In this document: piece after piece, positions 2,785 through 64,000 of the stretch
Layout of the letters: every line of letters begins with the position of its first letter
Position numbering within the stretch: the stretch's first letter is position 1
Assembly: GCA_011316305.1 (NCBI GenBank)
Contig: SAUG01000062.1
Coordinates: forward strand, 186,001-250,000
Direction of reading: 5' to 3'
Source of the DNA: Rusavskia elegans
Taxonomy: Eukaryota > Ascomycota > Lecanoromycetes > Teloschistales > Teloschistaceae
DNA: 64,000 bases
Program-made: the position numbers and the translations under genes
Notes under the pieces: model-generated
What the model was told of the DNA's origin: nothing
Seen by the model: the letters and a program-made list of their open reading frames with translations, nothing else
The model's database searches: none

Positions 2785-5700
2785 GCAGATCGAGGGACCT
2801 GCGTCTGGATACTTGTACTCGAGTGGAAGCGAATCAACCGTTGGAATGGCGGATAATGAGTAGGCTAGTCCGTCAGGCCGGGTACGGCAGGTGGGAGAGC
2901 AAAAGAATCAAAAGGGAAAGGGCACTGGCTGCAAGGCCGATCTTCGCTCACGCGAGGCGGCCGATGGAAGGGAAGTCGAGACGGGGCGGGGGGGCGGGCG
3001 AAGAAGAAGACTATGGCCCGTTCTGGTCGGGATGAAACAAATGGGCTTCTTTCGGTGGGCTGTCATGCCACTGCCCCAGCAACGCCATCACATCGGCGGC
3101 CTTTCTCGGCGTCTGCCCTCGCTCCAGTCTGAATTCCTGAATGGCCAAATCCATCAGTCGACCCTTTCAGCTCAGGCGATTCAGGGCACAAGGTCAGAAT
3201 GTCTGGAGAAACGAGGAGCAGGTCATCCCATTGCCCATTGCGGCAGCTCTAGACTACGGCCACACGCCCAATGAGGCAATCATCAGCAGCGGCGCTGAAA
3301 ACATCCGCCAATCTCCCACCTAATGAGGCAACTCGACCGCCCATCCGCCGCCAATAGCCACCTGGAAGCATCCCAAAGCATGCCTTCTCGGAGATCGACC
3401 ATTCAACCTTACCGAGGATCCACCTCTCATATCCTCAACCGAGCCTTCCACTTTGGTCATATGGATCCATCTCCAAAAGAACGTCAGTGCTTGTTGACAC
3501 GCCGTTGCGAAGTCACACGAACAACGCTCATGCATGAACTGGCAGCACCAACTTCGGCAGCTTCCTGATAGCCGTCGACAGTCAGTGTGTTATACATAAA
3601 CTGGTATCATCGTTTGATTGCGCATTGGCAAATTACCATTCTCCTCCCAGTACCATGTCAACTCGCCGTGAGACGCAAGCCCCAGCGCATGCACGATCAA
3701 TTTCTCGACATGCGCCTGCAGGTGGTTTGACTGGATATGTATGCAATTCATAATCCGGAAAGGCACATGAGGATGAGCACCAGCGAGCACAACAGCTTGT
3801 CACTGTCTGCTTCAAGGTTTCATCGGCGCATGCGATAGGACTATGCTGCTTGGGTATGCAAGTTGCCCGGTCCCTCGCCGGCTTGCTTGACCCTGGCGCT
3901 GGGGGGATCTGTGGCCGGTGTCGTTCGTTGGGCGGCTTCCCGTCTCCAGAAAGTGCTTCTCCTCAAACAAATCAAGCAGGTATTATTGCGGATGTACTGC
4001 CCTGAAAGCTGATGCATCAAGGCAGCATTAGTCGGCTTTCTCCAGTGCTATCCCCTCAAACCTGGATGCTGGATTACTCCAATCAAGATCCGAGTATCGC
4101 GTATCCGTATTTGGCGCTGCTGGATTCGCTCACAGATCTATCGACTTGCATCCCAAGGTCCCAACAGCCAGCTGCGGCGCAATCGCGCGAAGACTTCCCT
4201 GTTCGGTTCCGACGATCTTCGATATTTTGCCGTGACGGTCAGAAGCGACAGCGATCTCGTCACGGCCTTCTCGTCGACTGTCCGCAGTTCTGACGCAACG
4301 ACAAGCTCAGCCTTGCGTTGATGATCGTCATTGCATCAGCCATCTTCAGCCAAAAGCTTCGCCATCTCGGTCGGTTGACGTCGCGATTGGCCTGCTAAAT
4401 GACGCTTGGCTTGAGATCGCTGCAGCCAACGCGGCCACACAGCGCCGTGGCTGGCATAGCGTGACACGCTTCGGTAGCCCTCTCCGAACATCCTTGCGGT
4501 TCGGGTTGAAAACTGCACCTCCAACCGAATTGAGATTCGACCAGATTAGAGGCACCTTTCTCGAGGCGAGGTGCAAAGATCAGCGGCCGAATGCGATCCT
4601 CTGGCCATGCACGTTCGAGCGGAGATCGACAAATGCCACGAGGTGAGCACGACCCACTAAGGTTCGGTTACAGTTCATGAGGATCTTCAACATCGTTAAT
4701 TGAATATTGCGCTCTCCGAGCATTAAATAAGTGCCGTATTGATTGGCGCAAAACACACTAAATTTATAACCAGCTTGATCGTCTGAAGCTCTTGGAGAAA
4801 CTAATCTTATAGGCAGAAGCATCTTGTGAGGGGCGTTATTTTGTAGACTAATCTACCCTTCTCAGGCAGCTAAAATTGTACTGTTTATCTACGATTTATA
4901 TATCTATGCACGGACTCCGGTGGGAATTGTATCCGATCCCTTGCCCATAGTCCGAAAACGACAAATTTGAACTTAAACATATAAGCGAAAGCAGCTCATA
5001 GGCGGAGGCTGTCTTGATTACCAATTTACTGCTCAATACTGCTGAGTTATTTTGGTTGGTCAAATGATTGTTTGAGGTTGAGATCGAGCTTGCCCACGCA
5101 TATCAGCAATACTTCCCCGGACAAACCAATTCCATACTCCTATTCTGTCTGACCTGCCCACGTTGCATACAACACGAACACGCCATGTCTTTGCCGTGCA
5201 TGTCTTGCCTCCATACTCTCCTGGCAGAGGGGGGTGTAGAACGGCCTTCATCGAGTTGTCGCGTGCCATCGTGCAGAAATTTTCTCTGATACTTGCTGCA
5301 AATGGCAAGGCGCAACGGAAAGGGATCCAAAAGTAGTGTTGCAGTAAGTGGTCTATCCAATCCCCTGAAGCTTTGATGTCAACAAGAGCGGGATTCCTGG
5401 AGCCTACGGTCAGCGCGTGTTGGAAGTATATCCAAAGAGCCTTGTAGGAAACGAATGTTAAGAAGAGAGGGAGGGAACCTTAGAGGGTTGAAGCATGGCG
5501 AATATAAAGGAAAAGGAACGGGGGTGTGTGTACATATATATATAAGAAATGCAACACCCAACCAGGAGAGACCGACCACACATGTGATCTCTCCCTTCCG
5601 CTGCTATAAATTGGGTCTTCGCGGAGTACTACTTAGACCCAGTCCCAAAACCCGCTCTTACGGTAAGCAGCCCGCGTTCGAATATGATAATCCCTTCGAC

Positions 5701-6424
5701 TTAGCGGAACTAGGTATCCGATACCTCGACTGCCAGCTGTATTCGGATCGGATATTACTACGATTTGTATAAGATGATAGGCTTAGGGTTCGGATTCTTC
5801 TGCTCGCCAAGCCCCTGTAATCTGAACCGAAGACCCTAGCAGCCGAAGGGATAGCATGCTGTCAGGTAGGTAGTACGTTAGCAGTAGTCTTCTACCAGAA
5901 GCGTGGGAGTATCCGGAAAGTCGGAAAGTGATACGACACCGGGGCAAAATCAACGCACAGTCCATTCTATCTGTCTCAGTCTTGAATACGTACTCGCGTC
6001 CCATCCTTGCCATTGCGTCTGCCGCGGAGCAATAATTTCATGGACAGAGAGCGCTTTCGCTGGTCGTGATATTTGTACAGCAGAGAACGTATCATCTAAG
6101 CGATTCGTAACCTTTGAACCCCCGAACGCCATCGCTAACGTGCTTCTGAGTAGGATATGTACCGTGAATATGGACACCCACCCTCCAGTACGCCATCGCT
6201 AATGCCCAAAGCAATATATCAACCGCGGTATCTACAGCCCACAGGGCAATCCACAAAAAAGGGGTAAGTAATCCCAAACGCCTCCTTCCCATACATACCA
6301 ACATCAGTGGCAATGCGCAAATACATTGTCGCACCACTCTTCTCTTTGTCGACAGCCATTCCAATCCCATACCATCCATGCCGTCATATGTACTCGAAAT
6401 TGGCGTCCTGCCAGGTCAAAGCTG
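2785..6424. other. 3.6-kb interval without recognisable gene
   Basis: Several frames of 60-105 codons exist but none has a recognisable domain, signal peptide or intron structure. The proximal part (2785-3050) is purine-rich and G-rich and is likely the 5' flank of the Gln-rich gene. 4640-5060 is AT-rich. 5510-5545 has a TATATATA run. 5713-5725 is a perfect GGTATC-C-GATACC palindrome. The region may hold decayed repeats, but I could not identify a transposon. Confidence 0.4.
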
Positions 6425-9400
6425 TCATCGCTTCTTGTGGGCAACGGACGGCCACTCCGCTCCCTCATCCTCATCGCCATCATCGGTATTCGGCGCAGGT
6501 CCCGTAACCGTCCTCTGACTATCATTTGACGACGATATCCCACGCGCGATTTTCGGTCTCCGCATAAAAGACGGCCATTCCGACGTCTGGTCTTCTTCTG
6601 TAGACTTAGTCCTTGGTCGATGAGCTAGTGAACTCTCTGCTGCTGGTCTCGATGTCGGCCCTTTAGCCCTAGTGAAGGATTTCCCCGACTTTGAGGTTCT
6701 CCATGGACTTAGAGGAGGTCGTTCGGTAATTCTTTCCTTCGATCCTCCGGTCCCGTTCGTAGTCTCGGCGGGTGCAGGTGGTGGTGACATTGACTTTGCT
6801 GCCGCCTCGTAGGATGCTGTCCTGGTGGCCGCCAACCTCTTTGATAGATCCTCATGCGCAACTTGGGCAATTGCGTCTTTGGCGACCTCGTTCGCCGTCT
6901 GTTCCAAGCCGACCAGCTTCTTTGCATCTTGGCTCAGATAACTTTCCAGCATCTGTTTCAACACGTTTGCTCGTACTGGCTTGGCCAGATAATTGTTCAT
7001 GCCTGCATCGATGCACTTCTCGCGGTCGCCACGAATGGCCGAGGCTGTCATTGCGATGATGAGGACACTGCGAACGGTCGGATCATTGTCTTTGCGAATC
7101 AGGCGTGTCGCATCGTAGCCGTCCAGTACTGGCATCTGCACATCCATGAGAACGAGATGGAAGGGGTTCTTGTCCGCGGACCTGCTCCGGAGCGCTTCAA
7201 CAGCTTGCAGACCATCGCTGAAAGCTTCGGATTTGAAACCCAATTTAGTGACGAAAGAGACGGCGATCTTCTGGTTGATGGGGTTATCCTCAGCAATGCA
7301 GATACGAAGCTGGTCCCGCCGGATTTTGGAGAGATCGATGAAGGATGCTAGCTGTGATTTGGAGCCATCGGCATCTGAAGACCACGTTGCCATGGGGTCT
7401 GGTTCCGAAACAGGCCTGGCCATCTCGTTCGCTTTGGCGGCCTTCTGAGCTTTGGCGAAGGTGAGCGTGAACGAAACGGTTGTTCCCACTCCAAGCTGGC
7501 TTTCGAGCCATATCTTGCCATTCAGGACGCTGATCAAGGCTTTGCATATAGACAAACCTAGACCACTGCCTCCGTAAGAGCGCTGCGTGCTGCTGTCTGC
7601 TTGAGAGAATGGCTTGAACAGCCTTGACACTTGTTCCTGAGTGACTCCGATGCCCGTGTCAATGATCGAGCAGGTCACTTTGAGTGTCTTGCTGTCTTCA
7701 GACTCGGTCCTAGCCTTGATGGTAATGGAACCCTTCGCAGTGAACTTGTAGCTGTTGCTAAGTAGGTTCATGAAGATCTGGTGTATGCGGACCGGATCGC
7801 CCACAACCAGCAATTCTTCGTCAAGATCGAGGTCCTCAATCGTCTTGAGTCCTTTCTTCGCATTTGTCAGAGATAACGCCCGGACCACTTCCATGATGGT
7901 GCCTTTGAGGTTCATGGGCACGCTGAAGAGACTCAACTTTCCAGCTTCCAGTTTAGAAAAGTCAAGTATGTCGTTGATGACGGTAAGTAGTGTGTCTGCA
8001 CACACTTTGATGCTGTCCGTATAGTTCTCTTGCTCGGAATTCAACACAGTCCCTTTCAGCAGTTCGGACATGCCGATCACTCCATTGAGAGGGGTTCGCA
8101 ATTCGTGCGAAACGTTGGCTAGGAACATACTCTTAGCTTTAGCCGCTTCTTCCTTTTCTCTCACGCTCTTCATGGCCTCAGCCTCGGCGAACTTCGCCTT
8201 GAGCTCCGCATCTCGAGCCTTTGCCAGTGCCAATTTCTGTGATTCGATCATGCTAGCATTTGCGGCGGATACCTTGTGGATTTTCTTGAACAGTAGTGCG
8301 TTAAAGATAGATATTGACACCTGATTGCAGAACAACTGGAGCACTCCAACATTCCGGTCTGTAAAAGTGTTCGGTTGACCTTCCAGGTAAAGGACCCCAA
8401 GTGGATCTTTCCCACGTAAAATCGGAAGTGATATCACGGATCTGCTAGTAAGTGTGTTGCAGAACCTGTCATCGTGGAGCGCGTTGTGGACGAAGACTGT
8501 CTCTTTGAAACGAATCGTGTAGAGCAGAACTTGTTTCTGGTTCTCATCTTCAAGCTCTGATAGGGAAACTGCTTCTGCTTTGATACCGTCAGCGGTCCCG
8601 ATAGCGGCCACATTCCAGCCGCCTTCGCCTTCGATCACGACACAAGCAAGGTCCGCTTGTGCACCTGCTGACTCAAGGATAATTTCAGTCATTTTACCGA
8701 GCAAGCGGTCAATCTGTAGCTCCGACGAGATTGCTTGGTTGAACTCCATGATACTCTGGAGGTCTAAAACGTCCAGTCCAAGGCCTGATACATCGGCAAT
8801 TGTTCGCCCATCTTTCTCCACAGCCCCCGGAGCACTGGTGCCTGTCGGACTAATCCACTCATTCATTCGATCGCCAGTTGAGTCGCCGCCTACAGTGAAT
8901 TTCGGAGTTAGCATAAATGACATTGACCATAGCGTGGCTTGACAGGCCATCCGCTCGATGTTTCGATCGAGGTATCGAATGCCAGGCGCGCCAGGGATAG
9001 CTTCAAAGTCAAGCGGGATTGGGGTAAAAGAGCTCCGAAAACTACTTACTTTCCCGTTGCTGATGTTGGGGTTCGCCCAATGCAAAATTGGTATTGCCCG
9101 TTTCGCTACTCGTTTGTGCTTCGGCATCGACGCTGCGAACGTTCAACGCGTTGCTTAAAAGCCATTCATACTTATATCGAAGTTGGTTCGCCTTTCCAGA
9201 TGCACCAATTCGGGCATAGGTGCCCACAGCGTCTAGTAGAAGACTTCGTGCTGCCCGTTTCGAGCCTCTTCGCATGAAAAACTCTCCTTGAAGCTCAAAT
9301 GCCAAAGCCTGATCTAACATAAAGTCGTACAATTGTGTATGATCGATAGCGGCTTCATAAAGAATTGTAGCTTCGTGGTATTTCTGGGTCAGGTCGGCGA

Positions 9401-21827: not shown

Positions 21828-23244
21828 CTGGATATCTGATATACATCGGTCAAGGTACTCTAGAAGCTAGAGACATCTCTCTTACGAACACGTACTCGTA
21901 CAACGTAGGTACCACATGGCAGCAGGTGGTCATCGTTTAATACACCGACTGCTGTGCATCCAATGATACCTTTAGTCTTGGCCCGGCAAAACGGCCCATA
22001 AGAACAGCCCTCTGGCTCCTTCTACCAATGGCGAAATACCCTCTGTTACACCGTGTGGTGCACAAATGACTCGAAACACCTTCGGGATCGATTATTTATG
22101 CCATGCTGACAGGCTTTCCCCCCAGACCGCCTTGAAGGAATAAGGCTGAGTCTCATCTAACTTGAATGTTGCTGCCTGGGTCGCCTAACGGAGCCTCAAA
22201 TCTGTTGTGCTGGGCAGCCCACCCTGAACCGACGATGTCAGAAACCATATACGGGTCATATAGAGTGACAGCACAGCCTTCGTGTAGCGGATGATGAGGT
22301 TTGCAACGTGGTTCCTCTCCGAATCCACCCATCGCCATACCAGGCTGATGGATGTCCACAGTCGATTGAGTTTGAGCCCATCTATTTCACTCGTAACAAT
22401 TGAGGAACGTCAACCTCACAATCAAAAGCTTGGAGTGACTGCTGAAATTTCAGGCTTGTCAAACAACATAGTGTATTGCGAGTATGGCCTCATTTCGCGT
22501 TGCTGACCATATCGCAAAGCCTGGGAAAATTATTGTGACCGTCCGGATTCACTTCCCATCGGAGGTCGATGTGTCCCGAACTCATCGAAAGACAACTTTG
22601 ATGCATTCTTTCTTTTCATTTGGGGTTTCCATCGCGGCACGGTAGGGTTAGCCCTAGTCCACATGCAGCTCAGCCTGGACCCTCCCCCTTATGCCTGTTC
22701 ACCTTATTTGTCTGCATTCCGATTGGCGTATTTATTTGAACGTTATAAGTTTTCAATTCTAAGCTGTTTAAGCGTTTGAAATCGAACGAATCAGCTTGCG
22801 CGTAGTACTATTGCGCAACGTCAAACGCTACTACTACTTAGCTCTACTACATCCTTGGGATCCTCGAGACCTTCAAGCTGCTTATCGACCTGCCCTTGGA
22901 GAACGATATTGAAGGAAAGGGAGGGGTCAGGAATTATATATTGATACTAAAACGGGCGAGATATCTCGGAGCGCTGGCTGTGGATAAAATAGGCGGCAGT
23001 CCATACTAATAGTCCAGTAAGCGCGTCGCGGGGCAGGGATATCTCGCGACGCACTCGTGTAAAAGTCCATAGTGGCACCCTGGGGTGGGTGCCGCGAGGG
23101 AAAACCCTTCATTTGAGTTTCCGAGGGGTACTCTCTTAAGCCATCGAAAAAGGACATATTTGGAACCAGATATTCAGGGCAGACTCACGGTGAGCAGAAA
23201 AACCCGGACACTAAGCCTATAGTCTCATGCATTGGCAGGGTATA

Positions 23245-23330
23245 CGATTTGGCTGGCAGTCGTGATTTCGATTGCCCAATCCGGCATTCGATTTAGCTGG
23301 CAGTCGTGGTTTTGAGTGCCCAACCCGTCA
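23245..23330. repeat. imperfect tandem duplication, about 44-bp period
   Basis: Two adjacent copies, 23245-23288 and 23289-23330. Both start CGATTT, carry GCTGGCAGTCGTG and later TGCCCAA. They differ at several scattered positions, so the duplication is not recent. Confidence 0.6.
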
Positions 23331-25643
23331 AGTCGAAGTGTCCGAACGATTCCGCTCGCCATGAGGCAGGCTTAATCCACGAAGTCTTTGCTTAGCGAGC
23401 TGTGTCCCGAACATGTCATCGACCCAATTCGGTTGCCGATCCGCGATTAAGGTAGACCGGATTGTCACGCGCTGTCAACCAAACACTGAAGCTTGCCACG
23501 GAGATTATGTGTTTAAAGTTTGGGTCCTTCTGGATGTTAGAGGTGGATGAACCCGTTCGGGATTTTTTCTTTTATCTTGTACCTATCCTGATTTAGAGTT
23601 TCCGTTTCCCCGTTGCTTCTCGGACAGACACCTATCAAGGTCGTCATGCAATCGGCCATATCCCCACTAGGAAATCATTTGAATTAAGATGGCTTGGTCT
23701 TGGATTACGGATCACTATAGTTGATCTGGCCTGGCAATTGCACCTCCTCGGTCCTCCTCACTCTGTGCCCTCGTCTGCGTTATGGTTCTCCACTCCTTGT
23801 TGCATTCGGCCTTTTCACCCATGCTCTTTCTTTAAGTAGATATATACAATCATCTACTTTCTCGCTTACTCACCCTTCGTGGCCTCGGCACTGGCCGCAC
23901 ACAAGTGAGTGATACAGCCTGCTATTTGCGAAGTTACTCAGGGGTTTGGTATCGCAATAGGAACTTATTTGCTTTTCAACATCTAGTGGAAAGTTTCGCA
24001 AGAGCGACGGTTAGGAGAATGGAATAAGGGAGAATCTGATAGAGGCATGATCTACCCCCAGGCGGCTGTCGATGAAACTACTTTTGAGACGATGATAGAC
24101 AGACCTGTGTTGGAGCCAGAGACAACCCTGTCGCAACACCAAAGCAAACATGGTTATCAAAGTGTCGGAATCGAAATTAGTCATCCGACAACATTGCACC
24201 ATCTAGAGAATTGTCGAAAGCTGAAGCTTCGAGCTCTCAGAGATACACATTCATACAATTGGGCTGAATGGATGTCTCCATGGACGATCATCATCGACGA
24301 TGCTGCTCTGTAAGGAAGATGTATTCACCTACAAAGCCGGAAGGAAGCCGAGAGTTTTGTAAGACCTCCAACTACGGGCACTTTAGGAGCGGCAGTGGCG
24401 GCACCTCGATTCATTTCCTTGTGGTGTCTGTATGAGTCTAAATTCAGCAGGATTCGAGAGGCAGTGGAATTTGCCGCTGATATGACAAGCCCCGACGAAT
24501 GGGCAATGTCGAAAAACGTGATCCGATGTTCTCTCATCCTGTCTTCCACTCAACCTTGAATTTCCATGGCCTCTCTATCAAATTACCCGTAGCAAAGACT
24601 TTGGCTTGCCTGGCCTGGAAATATACACTCACCTCGGCACTATCACGGTAGGATATGACGTAGATATCGCGGTCACTCGGATGAATAACGACGGCCATCA
24701 ATAAAGGTCTAATTTGACGACGTTATTATCTTCGCGATACAGCCGGCCTCAAGTAGCGATCCCTCGGATCCCTCGTGCCTTTGGATGGAGTAGTCTGGAC
24801 CCGCGTTCTGAGATGCCTCGTGGCCCAATCTCTCCGTGGCTCGAAGCGAGAGGGAAGCGGCTTTAGAGCCAGCGCTTAGTCGATCGCCGACAGGGTTTAT
24901 TAACACGTCAAGATAAGAACGTCCACTCGGATTGCGTCCTTCGACCAGCTGCTTGCGCCATTCCATCACTCAAGGCTTTACATTTCCACTTGACAGGCCT
25001 TCAATTGTCGGCCTGGACCGATAAGACTCTGCCACACATGGAGAGGGGCGAGAGGAGACCTTGGGAGCCATTTTCATCCTGCCATGACCGTTTGAACGAG
25101 CGCATGCGGTGCGGCTGGACAAATATACTTTATGCATCCTGCCAAAGGAGAAATCTGCACTCCACATTCATGCAGCAGAGAGTTCAAAGCAGACTGCCAC
25201 TCAAAGTCAGTCGCTCTATGCGGTGGGACCACATACTACTGACTGTCACCACTGATCTACCGTTGGGTGCACCGCCAGGTCAATACTACCGTCGCCAAGG
25301 ACAGCTTGGATAGCTTCGATCATACCCCTGCCTCTCCCCGTGGTCACTTCGACGGTTGAGAGATACTGTGGCGGCCAACGCGAGCGAGTCATGGCAGTCT
25401 TCATCCCACCCAACAACCTCTCGCCCGTTGCGACCCATGTGCCTTATCTGCATCCTGCAAGCCAAGTGATCATTATTGGGGACACTGGGGGTCATCGAGC
25501 TAAGGCCGGATTGCCCACGGTGCGCGGATGATGGCACGCGGGTGTCAGCTTCAGTTATCCGGGAGCTTACCATGACGGGGACTTTTGCCTAGGCTTACCG
25601 CAAATGCCTTACACCTTGCCCCCATTACTACTAACTACCTTTA

Positions 25644-40956: not shown

Positions 40957-43900
40957 ATGGCCCAGGTTAGCGACCAGATTGGCGTGGGAGATTTCTATAC
41001 ACTGAAGAGCGACTCATCACTCAAAGGCATCGTCGAGCGTGTCTGGCACGACACTGACGCGGACCCATACACCGTCAAAAACCGCTTTCTCGTACACAAG
41101 GATCTACCTGACCATGTTCGACAGCAGCTAAAACATACTAAGCTTTTGCCAGAGAACTTCGTTGTTTTAAGACTTTTGTGGTGTCCGAGGGTAGATATAC
41201 TCGTTCATACGAGCGATCTTGTTCTTATTGATAAATACTTCTCACGAGGAGATGTTGTTAAGAGGAATTCATCGGACGCCCAGAGCGGTACTGTCATCGG
41301 GACTTCTTGCTCCTGTAATCTACGCCCTCACGTCTCCGTCACAGAGGGCCAGAATGAGAGAGCCCTGCGTCTCGATTTTGCACCAAAGGACACAGAGATT
41401 GCGAATGTTGACACACACGAGCTGGAGCCGTATCAATCTTGGAATGTAGGCGACACTGTCATCTTTGGGGGCTGGGTTGGAACTATCAAGGATATCGACT
41501 GTGCCACCACAGTTCGGCTGGAAGAAAACGGTAGTGTTGTTGTCGTTGATGATGCGAAAGATGTGAAAAGGATTGTATCTTCGATACCTCGGGACTTCGC
41601 CTACGTCCGCTTAAGCGGCAAGCCCAAAAAGAGGGAAGGTCCCAGTGCAGCTCTACTGTGTTATCCTGGACAAAGGGTTCGTGTGAAGAAAAGCTCTCTG
41701 GCGAAGGGCCGCTGGCTTTCCGGGGCTTTCAACGCCGGAATTTCACCTACGGGCGTGGTCCTCAATGTCCGCTGCGCAATGATTCAGGTGCACTGGAGAA
41801 TGCCAAGATCCGACGTACCAGCAACCACCGTTGCCGCTAAACCCGCAGTGTTCCTCATGGGAGAACAACTCGACAGTGGTGACGTCAAAAACTATGGCTT
41901 TTCCAGGAGTCCTGAGTTGGCTTATGGTGTCGAAGACCCCTTCGCTAGTGTGACAAACATGGTACCCAGTGAGTTTGTGATACGGAAAGATACTAATGCC
42001 ACAAGATTGAAGCATGTATGTGTTAGCGGAGATTGGGAACGGCAGATCGAACCACTGTCATTTCAACTTGAACTTCCATCAGGATCATTGTTGGGGCCTG
42101 ATGTTTCCGTATGGTTTGTCGCAGAGATCACTTCAACGACTAGTCGAGTAAAAATCCAGTGGCAAGACAACAGCATCACAGAAGAGCTGTCATCAGGCAT
42201 CTGTTCATACAATGAGGTCGACGATCACGACGTGTGGCCGGGTGAGATCGTATCTCTCAAGGGCCCAGAAACAATACAGCAGGATCTGGAATTTGAAAGA
42301 ATGTTGAGGACTCGTGCTGTAGGAGTTGTGCAGTCCGTCAATGCTGTCGAGCGGATTGCCAGAATACGCTGGTTCAAAGGTGCCGATATCACCATCACAG
42401 GTGAAGACTACACCGTTCTGGTCCGGCCGCATTCAAAGCTGGGAAAGATCACAGAAGAGATCACCGAGAGCTCCCTATATGAAATAGGGTCATACCATGC
42501 CCTGACGAAGCGGAGGGGTGACCTTGTCAGACTTGAGCGGCGGCCCAAGGAGACTCTTGGACAGGGCGGCATCAGTTGGCTTGGGGAAGTCATGGATCTG
42601 CTACCAAATGGTTGGCTGTTAGTACGCCTGGGTTCACTGGACAAGGCTCGAGACATCAAATGCTCCGTTCTCGATGTAACGACTGTCCTCAGCGCCGATG
42701 ATGACACGACCGACAGCGACTCGTCTGGATCGGAAAGCTCAGATGAATGGGAGGACGATACAATTATGGCTGGACAATGGCCTGGCAGCACACTCATTGA
42801 ATATGAAGGTTCAGCTCCATCCGATCATGATGAACAAGAATGGGAGACCGACAGCGACGATCACGCAGCTACTGGATCTGAGTAAGTAGTTTTCGCAGCT
42901 CTTTTACCCCAATCCCGCATGACTTTGGAGCTATCTTTGGCAAGCTAGGCATTCGAGACCTCGATTGACGCCTTCGAGACCTCGTCTGGAGTCAATCAAG
43001 GTCACGGATGCACTGCCATGCCATGGGTTGAGACATCTGTACTCCTGGGGCATTTGTATGGTAGGGCACGCTGACTCCGAAATCTGCTGCAGAGCCAGTA
43101 TGGATCAAGGTGAACCCCAAGAGATTGTTCCTCCTGTAGGATCGACTCCGATGGATGTTGACAGCTCGAACGAAACCAACGAAATGGAGAAGATCGACTC
43201 CCGAGAGGAACCGCTGACCATCGAGAGCCGATCGGGCCCAGCTGCATTCGAGGTTCTCGAAGGGTCAGCTCCTAAGCAGGCGTCTCTTGCGGGATCTGGT
43301 AGTCACAGTAAAGAATGGCTTCGTGCAGTGTCTCGGGAACACAAGATTCTACGTACTTCACTTCCCCAAGGCGTCTATGTGAGGACATGGGAATCTGATA
43401 TGGAGCTCTTACGAGTACTCATCATTGGGCCTTCTGGCACACCCTACGCCCATGCACCTTTCCTATTCGACATTACATTGCATAGTCGATTTCCAACAGA
43501 AGCTCCGACGGCGTTCTTCCATTCGTGGACGAACGGGGTCGGAAGAGTCAACCCGAACCTATACGAAAACGGCAAGGTATGCTTGAGCTTATTAGGAACC
43601 TGGGAAGGGGATGATGATGAGGAGGAATGGGTGGCGGGCAAGTCGACTGTTCTGCAGATCATTGTCAGTCTCCTTGGTCTGGTTTTGGTCAAGGAGCCGT
43701 TCTACAGTACGTTGACTCATCAATTCACCCGTCTCTTTTTCGATGATTTGTTCGAAGCAGTTGATTCACAAACATTCCATTTGCATTCCTACTGTCAGGC
43801 TTTCTTTAGTCTTTGTCACATCAGTGCTACTTCCTCTCGCGGTACTCCACCGGTCTCCTGTGTCCTTTCAACTTGTAGTACGGGCATCCGATCCCTCTAC

Positions 43901-62419: not shown

Positions 62420-64000
62420 ATGACGATCCCAATCCACGACATCCTCATCATCGGCGCCGGTCCCGCAGGTCTAGCAGTCGCAGCCCGCCTCCGCGAACCG
62501 ACTCCCTCTGCTGTTTTCACAGACGCAGAACATAACCGCTACCAATGGATCAAGAAACATTCGGGACGTATGAATCTCCGTCCGCGTGGATGTGGGGCGC
62601 AGAGATCGAAGTGTTCGTCTGTGGGTGGTTGTAACGACGTAAAGGGGTTCGATCGTTCCGTACTTTTTTTCCAAAGCCATGACATCTAATGATATGCCGG
62701 TCCAGGGATGACGATACCACAGCACCGTCCGGCAGTACCCACCGTCTTGACATCAAAGTCCTCGACAGTAGCGGCCCCAATTGGCTTCACAGCTGGATCG
62801 CCAATTTCGCTGCCTTAGGGATCTCGCACCTTCGAAGTCCCATGTTCTTCCACCCTTGCCCACGGGATCGCGATGGGTTGCTCGCTTTCGTGCAAGAGAC
62901 GGGCCGCTGCGACGAATGCGTTGAGATTGCGAATTGTGTGGGTAAATCGATGAGTAAACATCGACGGAAGAAGAAAATAGCCAAGGGGCATGAGATCGGG
63001 ACGGTGACGAGTAAGAAAGGGGCGGCTTTGGAGATTGATGAGAGGGATCGGAAGGATTATTTCACGCCGAGTGCCGAGGTCTTTTGTGATTATTGTCGGG
63101 ATGTGGTGGGAAGGTATGGCTTGGAGGTAAGTAAATTCGGGAGCTCCTTTACCCCAGTCCCGCTTGACTTTGGAGCTGTCCCTGGCATGCTAGGTATTCG
63201 AGACCTCGATTGACATGCCAATCGGAAGGCTTGCCAAGCCATAATGCGACACACCATGATCGATCACATTTGTACTCCTGAGACAGTTGCATTGAATGCT
63301 GACTTGGAGATCTACTGCAGGATTTGGTGGAAGAAGCACAGGTTGCTTCGATTGATTTCGGTTCTCATGATGTGGAAGTCGATCTCCATCACGAGGATGA
63401 CCCTGCAGTGAGACTCTTTAAGGTCACCGCTACAGATGGGAATATCAGGTTCGCAAAGGTCGTTGTCCTGGCTATTGGGGCTGGTGGGAAACCGAACATG
63501 CCTCGGAAATTGTCAGCCGTCGAGAAGGAAGGGGCGTGTCATAGCACACAATTACCCAAGCAGGTGTTCCTGGCTCCGAGCGTGACGCATAAGATACTGA
63601 AAAGGGTGCCGACGGCCGTGGTGGTTGTCGGAGGCGGTTTGACGGCGGCACAGATTGCTAATCAGTGTATAGAGAATGAAGTGGGCAATGTTTTCATGGT
63701 CATGCGGAGTGCTCTAAAACGTACGTCACTGGCCAAAGAGATATCCGAAGACCATGGAAGATGAGCTTACCAAATCGTGCGTAGTAAAACCATTCGATAT
63801 CGATCTCGACTGGATGGGCAAGTTCCAAAACGTGCAGAAAGCCGCGTTCTGGTCTGCCGATAGCGACGAGGGTAAGCAAAGATCTACTCAAGCAGTCAGT
63901 CCACTTCTAAATCATCCTTTACTGAACTGCCAATCCAGAGCGTCTCGAGATGTTGCTCAAAGCACGCAATGGCGGCTCCATCCCACCTCGCTATTTCAAG
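62420..64000 (+). CDS. FAD/NAD(P)-binding monooxygenase-like protein, 3' end beyond window
   Basis: A flavoprotein related to N-hydroxylating and flavin monooxygenases. Start at 62420 (MTIPIHDILIIGAGPAGLAV) gives the FAD Rossmann motif GAGPAG at once. KKHSGRMNL follows. After an intron whose borders I could not fix (between about 62580 and 62725) come LDSSGPNWLHSW, SPMFFHPCPRDRDGLLAF and EIDERDRKDYFTPSAEVFCDYC. Exon junctions downstream are clear: introns 63127-63320 (introner-like), 63721-63784 and 63872-63938. VVVVGGGLTAAQIANQC carries the second nucleotide-binding motif. The gene runs off the right edge. The first intron is the weak point: the best donor (GTAAAG) and best acceptor (GGTCCAG) give a stop when joined, so either a weaker site is used or the gene is damaged. 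Confidence 0.8.
63127..63320 (+). repeat. introner-like element, copy C (intron of flavin monooxygenase gene)
   Basis: A 194-bp intron, phase 0, GTAAGTAA to CTACTGCAG. The first about 87 nt match copies A and B (AGCTCCTTTACCCCAGTCCC, then TGACTTTGGAGCTGTCCCTG). The 3' end (GCTGACTTGGAGATCTACTG) aligns with copy B. The middle is unrelated. Confidence 0.85.

Follow-up and report, generated by a model that had tools for sequence, protein, structure and literature searches.

The window analysed here is a stretch of 64,000 nucleotides from the Rusavskia elegans assembly GCA_011316305.1 (contig SAUG01000062.1, positions 186,001 to 250,000). It contains three full copies of a family of introner-like elements (ILEs), as counted with a covariance model (R1) built for this family and applied to the window only, together with an intergenic MITE and a probable degenerate relative of it. 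The features are as follows.

5660..5805, plus strand: probable degenerate single-unit MITE-B, limits approximate and set by eye; weak R1 match (R1 positions 55-101 at 5700-5748, E 0.015)
8890..9049, minus strand: ILE copy 1, 160 nt, phase 1, hybrid histidine kinase gene; splice signals GTAAGT (donor), GCTAAC (branch) and TAG (acceptor); 3' half shortened; R1 E 6.6e-39
23184..23365, minus strand: MITE copy, 182 nt, two ~42-nt core units, ~30-nt terminal inverted repeats (TIRs), core homologous to the ILE centre; ILE profile match 23221-23278, R1 matches 23223-23284 and 23285-23332; no target-site duplication (TSD) found at this copy
42882..43092, plus strand: ILE copy 2, 211 nt, phase 2, UBE2O-like gene; splice signals GTAAGT (donor), GCTGAC (branch) and CAG (acceptor); centre longer; R1 E 9e-48
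63127..63320, plus strand: ILE copy 3, 194 nt, phase 0, flavin monooxygenase gene; splice signals GTAAGT (donor), GCTGAC (branch) and CAG (acceptor); R1 E 9.1e-55

A first-pass annotation of the sequence had described the segments at 8890-9049, 42882-43092 and 63127-63320 as related introns in unrelated genes. All three GT..AG segments are present at these positions and align from donor to acceptor, and the reading frames are open after excision in the phases (1, 2 and 0) and the host-sense direction that it gave. The hosts are indeed unrelated, with three different Pfam assignments: a histidine kinase with GAF, HisKA, HATPase and receiver domains, a UBE2O-type ubiquitin-conjugating enzyme and a Lys/Orn-type flavin monooxygenase; the Pfam families differ among all 7 ILE hosts scanned. 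In that annotation the likeness was confined to ~87 nt at the 5' side and ~20 nt at the 3' side. The 5' block and the 3' end do align best, but the likeness spans the whole length, the family consensus of 200 nt being alignable throughout and the copy at 8890-9049 lacking part of the 3' half. Neither a known RNA family at gathering score nor a tRNA was found in the 64-kb window.

The identity of the host organism can be judged from the DNA ligase I of the same genome, which is 94% identical to that of Xanthocarpia ochracea (Teloschistaceae, Lecanoromycetes) and 84-92% identical to the next named proteins, from Caloplaca, Flavoplaca, Squamulea, Teloschistes, Letrouitia and others. Letrouitia belongs to the Letrouitiaceae (Teloschistales), and the nearest named relatives other than Xanthocarpia and Letrouitia we take to be members of the Teloschistaceae. 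By this ligase evidence, the host of the ILEs is a lichen-forming fungus of or near the Teloschistaceae, and not a Dothideomycete.

The extent of the family was assessed in the genome of 44,163,098 bases on 217 contigs. With the 160-nt copy 1 as query, at least 40 genome matches were obtained, including itself and the two other window copies, all with E ≤ 8e-8, which places the relatedness of the three introns far beyond chance. Three short family patterns, with 3 mismatches allowed, found 52, 44 and 16 genome sites (0 for a control pattern read backwards), a fourth pattern taken from the central hairpin found 13, and two further copies used as queries gave six additional places. A family profile built from 33 seed copies was run over these places and their flanks, and an element was counted if it reached the 3' end with a score ≥35. 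The family thus defined comprises at least 88 distinct dispersed elements on 52 contigs, 80 of them with a profile score ≥80. Because every new query added copies and only the best 40 candidates were scored per search, 88 is a lower bound. The prediction of many copies in the genome therefore holds at the scale of about a hundred found, but not of thousands. Mean density is ~0.13 ILE per 64 kb (88 in 44.2 Mb), so that the window, with three, lies above average.

The consensus of 80 copies is 200 nt long. Its GTAAGT donor is followed by the 5' block and a central hairpin, and a variable stretch then leads to the branch region GGCATGCTGAC and a CTGCAG acceptor. Pairwise identity among the ILEs averages 0.71, with a median of 0.80 and a maximum of 0.92 to the nearest neighbour, and the median identity to the consensus is 0.82. 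Their tree is star-like, terminal branches holding 12.5 of its 13.75 substitutions per site. This shape, taken with the median identity to the consensus, suggests an old burst from few masters, and the family is probably silent now. A weak sign of RIP is seen in the rate of C to T change in CpA, at 0.151 compared to 0.088-0.118 in other contexts.

Splice signals and reading frames were examined in the individual copies. Donor and acceptor were both recognised automatically in 69 of the 88 elements, and one alignment of 39 copies shows no variation in the branch letters CT-AC. The other 19 elements have no recognised site at one end in the automatic search; by eye they include a GC-AG case, several with unusual but usable sites and several that look dead (for example L111 and L061). 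Codon scores of the 150-nt flanks of the 69 elements with both splice sites were higher on the sense strand upstream in 59 and downstream in 58, the antisense strand being better on both sides in a single element. The best flank frames fit exact excision in 42 of the 69 (chance expectation 23), and in 25 of the 30 copies where both flanks score as coding. Frames disagree in 27 of the 69, which may be due to other introns close by, to splice sites wrongly placed by the automatic search or to decay of the gene. After excision, the frame stays open for 50 codons or more on each side in 39/69, and in only 1 of those 39 can the intron itself be read through.

Individual hosts were also compared with known proteins. 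With its ILE (L068) excised, the DNA ligase I junction is free of gaps when aligned with human LIG1 and with 26 of the 27 fungal ligases compared. The exception is the predicted DNA ligase I of Flavoplaca sp. (P0003), which is without six residues exactly at the L068 junction, as if an intron at the identical position had been misplaced by the gene finder. The carboxylesterase with its ILE (L042) excised agrees with EstA across the junction. Compared to human DPEP1, the dipeptidase (L016) carries additional residues close to its junction, and exact excision is not proven by this case. Judged from these alignments and frames, the ILEs appear to lie within genes in the sense of the host, with the reading frame restored upon excision.

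The insertion sites of the 69 ILEs are free of the usual mark of DNA transposition, in that a direct repeat of at least 4 bases directly flanking the intron was found in none of them (0/69); the same test, applied as a positive control to the MITE described below, detected a TSD in 18 of 25. Shorter flanking direct repeats number 2 for two bases (4.4 expected) and 1 for three bases (0.95 expected). Words common to the two 14-nt flanks lie slightly above expectation, at 3/69 for 6 bases (1.4 expected), 8 for 5 bases (6.5) and 26 for 4 bases (22.9), and the exon starts with the same 3 bases as the intron in 2 of 69 (0.9 expected). The excesses in these shared-word counts are small and unexplained. 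Immediately upstream of the donor stands a G in 36/69 and an A in 18/69. A preference for AG/GY sites, attributed to van der Burgt for other fungal ILEs in a passage of PMC8469720, is hardly seen here: AG precedes the donor in 8/69, against a background of 5.8%, and AG/G occurs in 3/69. Seven pairs of neighbouring ILEs less than 1 kb apart, counted inside fetched stretches, are all on the same strand, which suggests several insertions into one gene.

Intron gain was examined in the carboxylesterase family. In the 8 paralogues examined from the same genome, the ILE position is empty throughout; a short intron lies 8 nt downstream in 5 of them, and the other 3 are intronless around the site. The 8-nt offset resembles the near-parallel gains described in the accessible text on Dothideomycete ILEs (PMC4457414), with the proviso that paralogues are weaker evidence than orthologues, and loss of the intron elsewhere is a possible alternative to gain of the ILE. 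Together, many related copies in unrelated hosts, with their own splice signals, host sense, all phases and no TSD, bear out the assignment to introner-like elements made by the first-pass annotation.

We next considered the predicted structure of the intron. The ILE consensus is predicted to fold end to end (-64.8 kcal/mol, z -3.9), and the alignment fold (alifold) beats 60 column shuffles with z -3.4. Taken singly, the copies fold with a median z of -1.4, and 35% of them fall below -2. The predicted pairing joins the two ends of the element, donor and acceptor included, the end stem being an imperfect inverted repeat of 14 pairs with 86.8% of cells paired. Covariation in the 54-pair end-to-end fold, of which the apical core hairpin is no part, equals 0.129 compared to 0.131 in shuffles (39 copies). 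In a 37-pair fold of 80 copies it is 0.182 compared to 0.163, a value reached by 0 of 500 shuffles, and this excess stems mostly from the apical core hairpin and the stem at 36-64. The hairpin pairs in 87.2% (84.5% in shuffles) with a covariation of 0.292 (0.242 in shuffles, 0/500 reaching it), where the shuffles ignore relatedness and a subfamily of 19 of the 80 copies accounts for part of the signal. The score of the stem at 36-64 is reached by 4/500 shuffles and that of the terminal stem by 75/500. Along the tree, core hairpin pairs were kept or broken in a ratio of 15:9 on internal branches and 78:96 on terminal ones (P 0.13), a comparison of limited power on a star-like tree. The outer symmetry thus seems to have belonged to the master and to be eroding in its copies; the hairpin shared with the MITE, by contrast, shows paired changes.

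The 19 copies of this subfamily (including L026, L030, L035, L039 and L043) carry C-G instead of T-A at consensus positions 84/95. In several copies of the C-G form the central palindrome is extended and almost perfect (CGAGACCTCGACTG..CAGTCGAGGTCTCG), which may reflect completion of the palindrome by template switching.

The intergenic repeat represented at 23184..23365 is dispersed as well. Used as a query, the window copy gave at least 56 genome matches, with the best 40 of 129 candidates scored. Both ~30-nt TIRs are present in 25 of 33 loci, and 18 of these 25 are flanked by a TSD of 5-6 bp (~0.8 expected). Because it has ~30-nt TIRs and target duplications of 5 or 6 bp, the repeat is a MITE, that is, a non-autonomous DNA transposon. 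A first class carries one to several ~42-nt core units. MITE-B has a single core unit, a 154-nt consensus and 24 unique loci, 9 of them with a 5-bp TSD, and locus L069 is counted in both sets. MITE lengths are about 120-240 nt. Identity to the consensus is 0.92 for MITE-A (13 copies) and 0.88 for MITE-B (27 rows), compared to the ILE median of 0.82 (80 copies). Genomic surroundings also differ, in that both flanks are coding-like in 5 of the 38 MITEs with enough flank (from a set of 51) versus 39/69 ILEs.

The centre of the intron and the core of the MITE proved to be alike. ILE consensus positions 66-123 and MITE-B positions 61-118 share 47 identities in 58 columns (81%), with a local score of 57, where the maximum in 1000 dinucleotide shuffles was 27; against the first MITE class the score is 51 (maximum 27 in 2000 simple shuffles). 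Profile matches at E ≤ 1 all lie on the same strand, both for the MITE profile on 80 ILEs (28/28) and for the ILE profile on 13 MITEs (17/17). Both consensus sequences are predicted to fold end to end, with the common core near the apex. Sequence comparison thus shows shared ancestry for the central ~58 nt of the ILE and the MITE core. The ends are a different matter. ILE ends do not match the MITE TIRs significantly (P 0.02-0.31 for the 5' flank and 0.11-0.79 for the 3' flank), nor do the last 40 nt of the ILE alone match the MITE (P 0.03-0.57), and a joint test of both ends against the MITE gave P 0.08-0.17, or 0.25-0.28 once the letters of the splice sites were removed. Homology between ILE ends and MITE TIRs was therefore set aside as unproven.

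What, then, are these introns, and how did they come to share a core with a transposon? We are highly confident that the three segments are copies of a fungal ILE, a spliceosomal intron of ~200 nt that brings its own donor, branch and acceptor and has been copied, in host sense and without target duplication, into exons of unrelated genes. The excised intron RNA would be the propagating form; it may be reverse-spliced, or otherwise seamlessly ligated, into transcribed DNA or RNA, and the inserted intron would then be copied back. Reverse splicing would be the likeliest mechanism because the marks of DNA transposition are absent, and not on account of any positive signature. That these are ordinary old introns, or that a repeat inserted into introns already there, is extremely improbable: the family likeness runs from donor to acceptor, so that the repeat is the intron, and all phases and unrelated hosts are represented. 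The short intron 8 nt downstream in five carboxylesterase paralogues could be read in favour of old introns, but all 8 are intronless at the exact ILE position, and 3 of them are so in its neighbourhood as well. As for the core, it may have reached the ILE through capture of a piece of the MITE or through descent of the whole element from it.

It is plausible, though short of probable, that an ordinary ILE captured the MITE core by insertion or recombination and has carried it since as passive cargo with no role in copying. Homology is demonstrable only for the centre (ILE 66-123, MITE-B 61-118), and end-to-end pairing is not kept in the copies (the 54 pairs at 0.129 versus 0.131), both as expected of a captured core. 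Passive cargo would fit less well with an apical hairpin that pairs and covaries above all 500 shuffles, where again relatedness is ignored and the 19-copy subfamily contributes, or with the position of the core, which in ILE and MITE alike lies close to the apex of a hairpin spanning the whole element. A bolder proposal, which we hold tentatively and regard as somewhat unlikely, is that this ascomycete introner family descends from a MITE: an element with TIRs and TSDs would have become spliceable in genes, lost its dependence on transposase and then spread as a seamless, RNA-borne intron. If true, the outlier status of ascomycete introners would represent a second life of DNA transposons, with no separate origin. 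We consider it unlikely that the ILE itself is a DNA transposon derivative, namely a MITE whose TIRs acquired splice sites and which was moved into genes by transposase, as described for algal introners. Such a derivative would account for the same-strand core homology with a TIR- and TSD-bearing MITE, for the end-to-end fold of both consensus sequences around a common apical core, and for ILE ends that form an imperfect inverted repeat (14 pairs) with weak motif likeness to the MITE TIR. However, that likeness is not significant, TSDs are found in 0/69 ILEs whereas the MITE has them, and ILEs sit in sense in genes while the MITEs are mostly not beside coding sequence. The reverse direction, in which the MITE acquired its core from the ILE, seems quite unlikely to us; the greater divergence of the ILE copies (0.82, compared to 0.92 for MITE-A and 0.88 for MITE-B) would allow their burst to predate the visible MITE bursts, but two MITE classes that differ in their flanks both carry the core, one of them in tandem, as if it were native to the MITE.

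The seamless, RNA-borne introns favoured here can be set beside known systems, as described in the openly accessible passages of the literature. ILEs were described in Dothideomycetes by van der Burgt et al. (2012) and Collemare et al. (2015; PMC4457414). As in the passages of the latter, related introns occur in unrelated genes, in sense, with seamless insertion and a predicted stable fold, two ILEs can lie close together in one gene, and insertion can occur near a regular intron position of relatives. The Rusavskia family differs in its lichen-fungus host, the age of its copies, the want of a clear AG/GY preference and its MITE-homologous centre. In the passages of Gozashti et al. 2022 (PMC9860276), introners are gene-biased, ascomycete introners are without TSDs or TIRs, and the ascomycetes are called an outlier, with no signs of DNA transposition. 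The Rusavskia ILEs agree with these families in being gene-biased and without TSD, but differ in having ends that resemble inverted repeats and a core in common with a TIR/TSD MITE. Sister stwintrons of Hypoxylaceae, according to passages of PMC8469720 and PMC12403724, are symmetrical, with inverted-repeat ends and random seamless insertion without TSD. The Rusavskia ILE shares inverted-repeat-like ends, seamless insertion and the absence of a TSD with them; as described there, sister stwintrons are mostly nested twin introns, whereas the Rusavskia ILE is single, its end repeat shorter and less perfect, and its centre related to a MITE. Algal introners derived from DNA transposons (Huff et al. 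2016) are said in passages of PMC12403724 and PMC9860276 to recruit a splice site out of the duplicated target. In these algae, too, the intron is tied to a non-autonomous DNA element; unlike them, on that account, the Rusavskia ILE carries both splice sites itself, and a TSD was not found in 69.

The origin of new introns is an old question, and the passages of PMC9860276 and PMC12403724 describe ascomycete introners without signs of an origin from DNA transposons. In the open literature, at the level of titles, abstract openings and passages, we found no published ascomycete introner with a homologous MITE in the same genome. Nor did the open literature, as distinct from subscription papers and supplementary tables, yield a report of introners in lichens or Lecanoromycetes; the words lichen and Lecanoromycetes are absent from the main text of PMC9860276. 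An ILE family in a lichen fungus thus seems to be new, its new aspect being the hairpin core shared with a MITE, and ILEs appear to be extended to lichen-forming Lecanoromycetes. With this shared core, a descent of fungal introners from DNA elements can be tested directly in sister genomes of Teloschistaceae.

Some further observations concern the MITE. A search for an autonomous partner through 77 sites of the 5' TIR pattern gave, by eye, a closest facing pair 17.4 kb apart (C193), the pattern omitting the 3' TIR variant and the search being weak for that reason. The sequence CCCTG forms the TSD of L129 and L090 and stands upstream of L125, L130 and L142, and CCAGC is found at L126, which hints at a target preference. 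One locus, L140 (C145:792700-793500), shows a MITE-type TIR and left half and, after them, an inverted pair of another kind, CAGATCTCCTACGGAGGAGTA with its complement, and is perhaps a nested or hybrid element.
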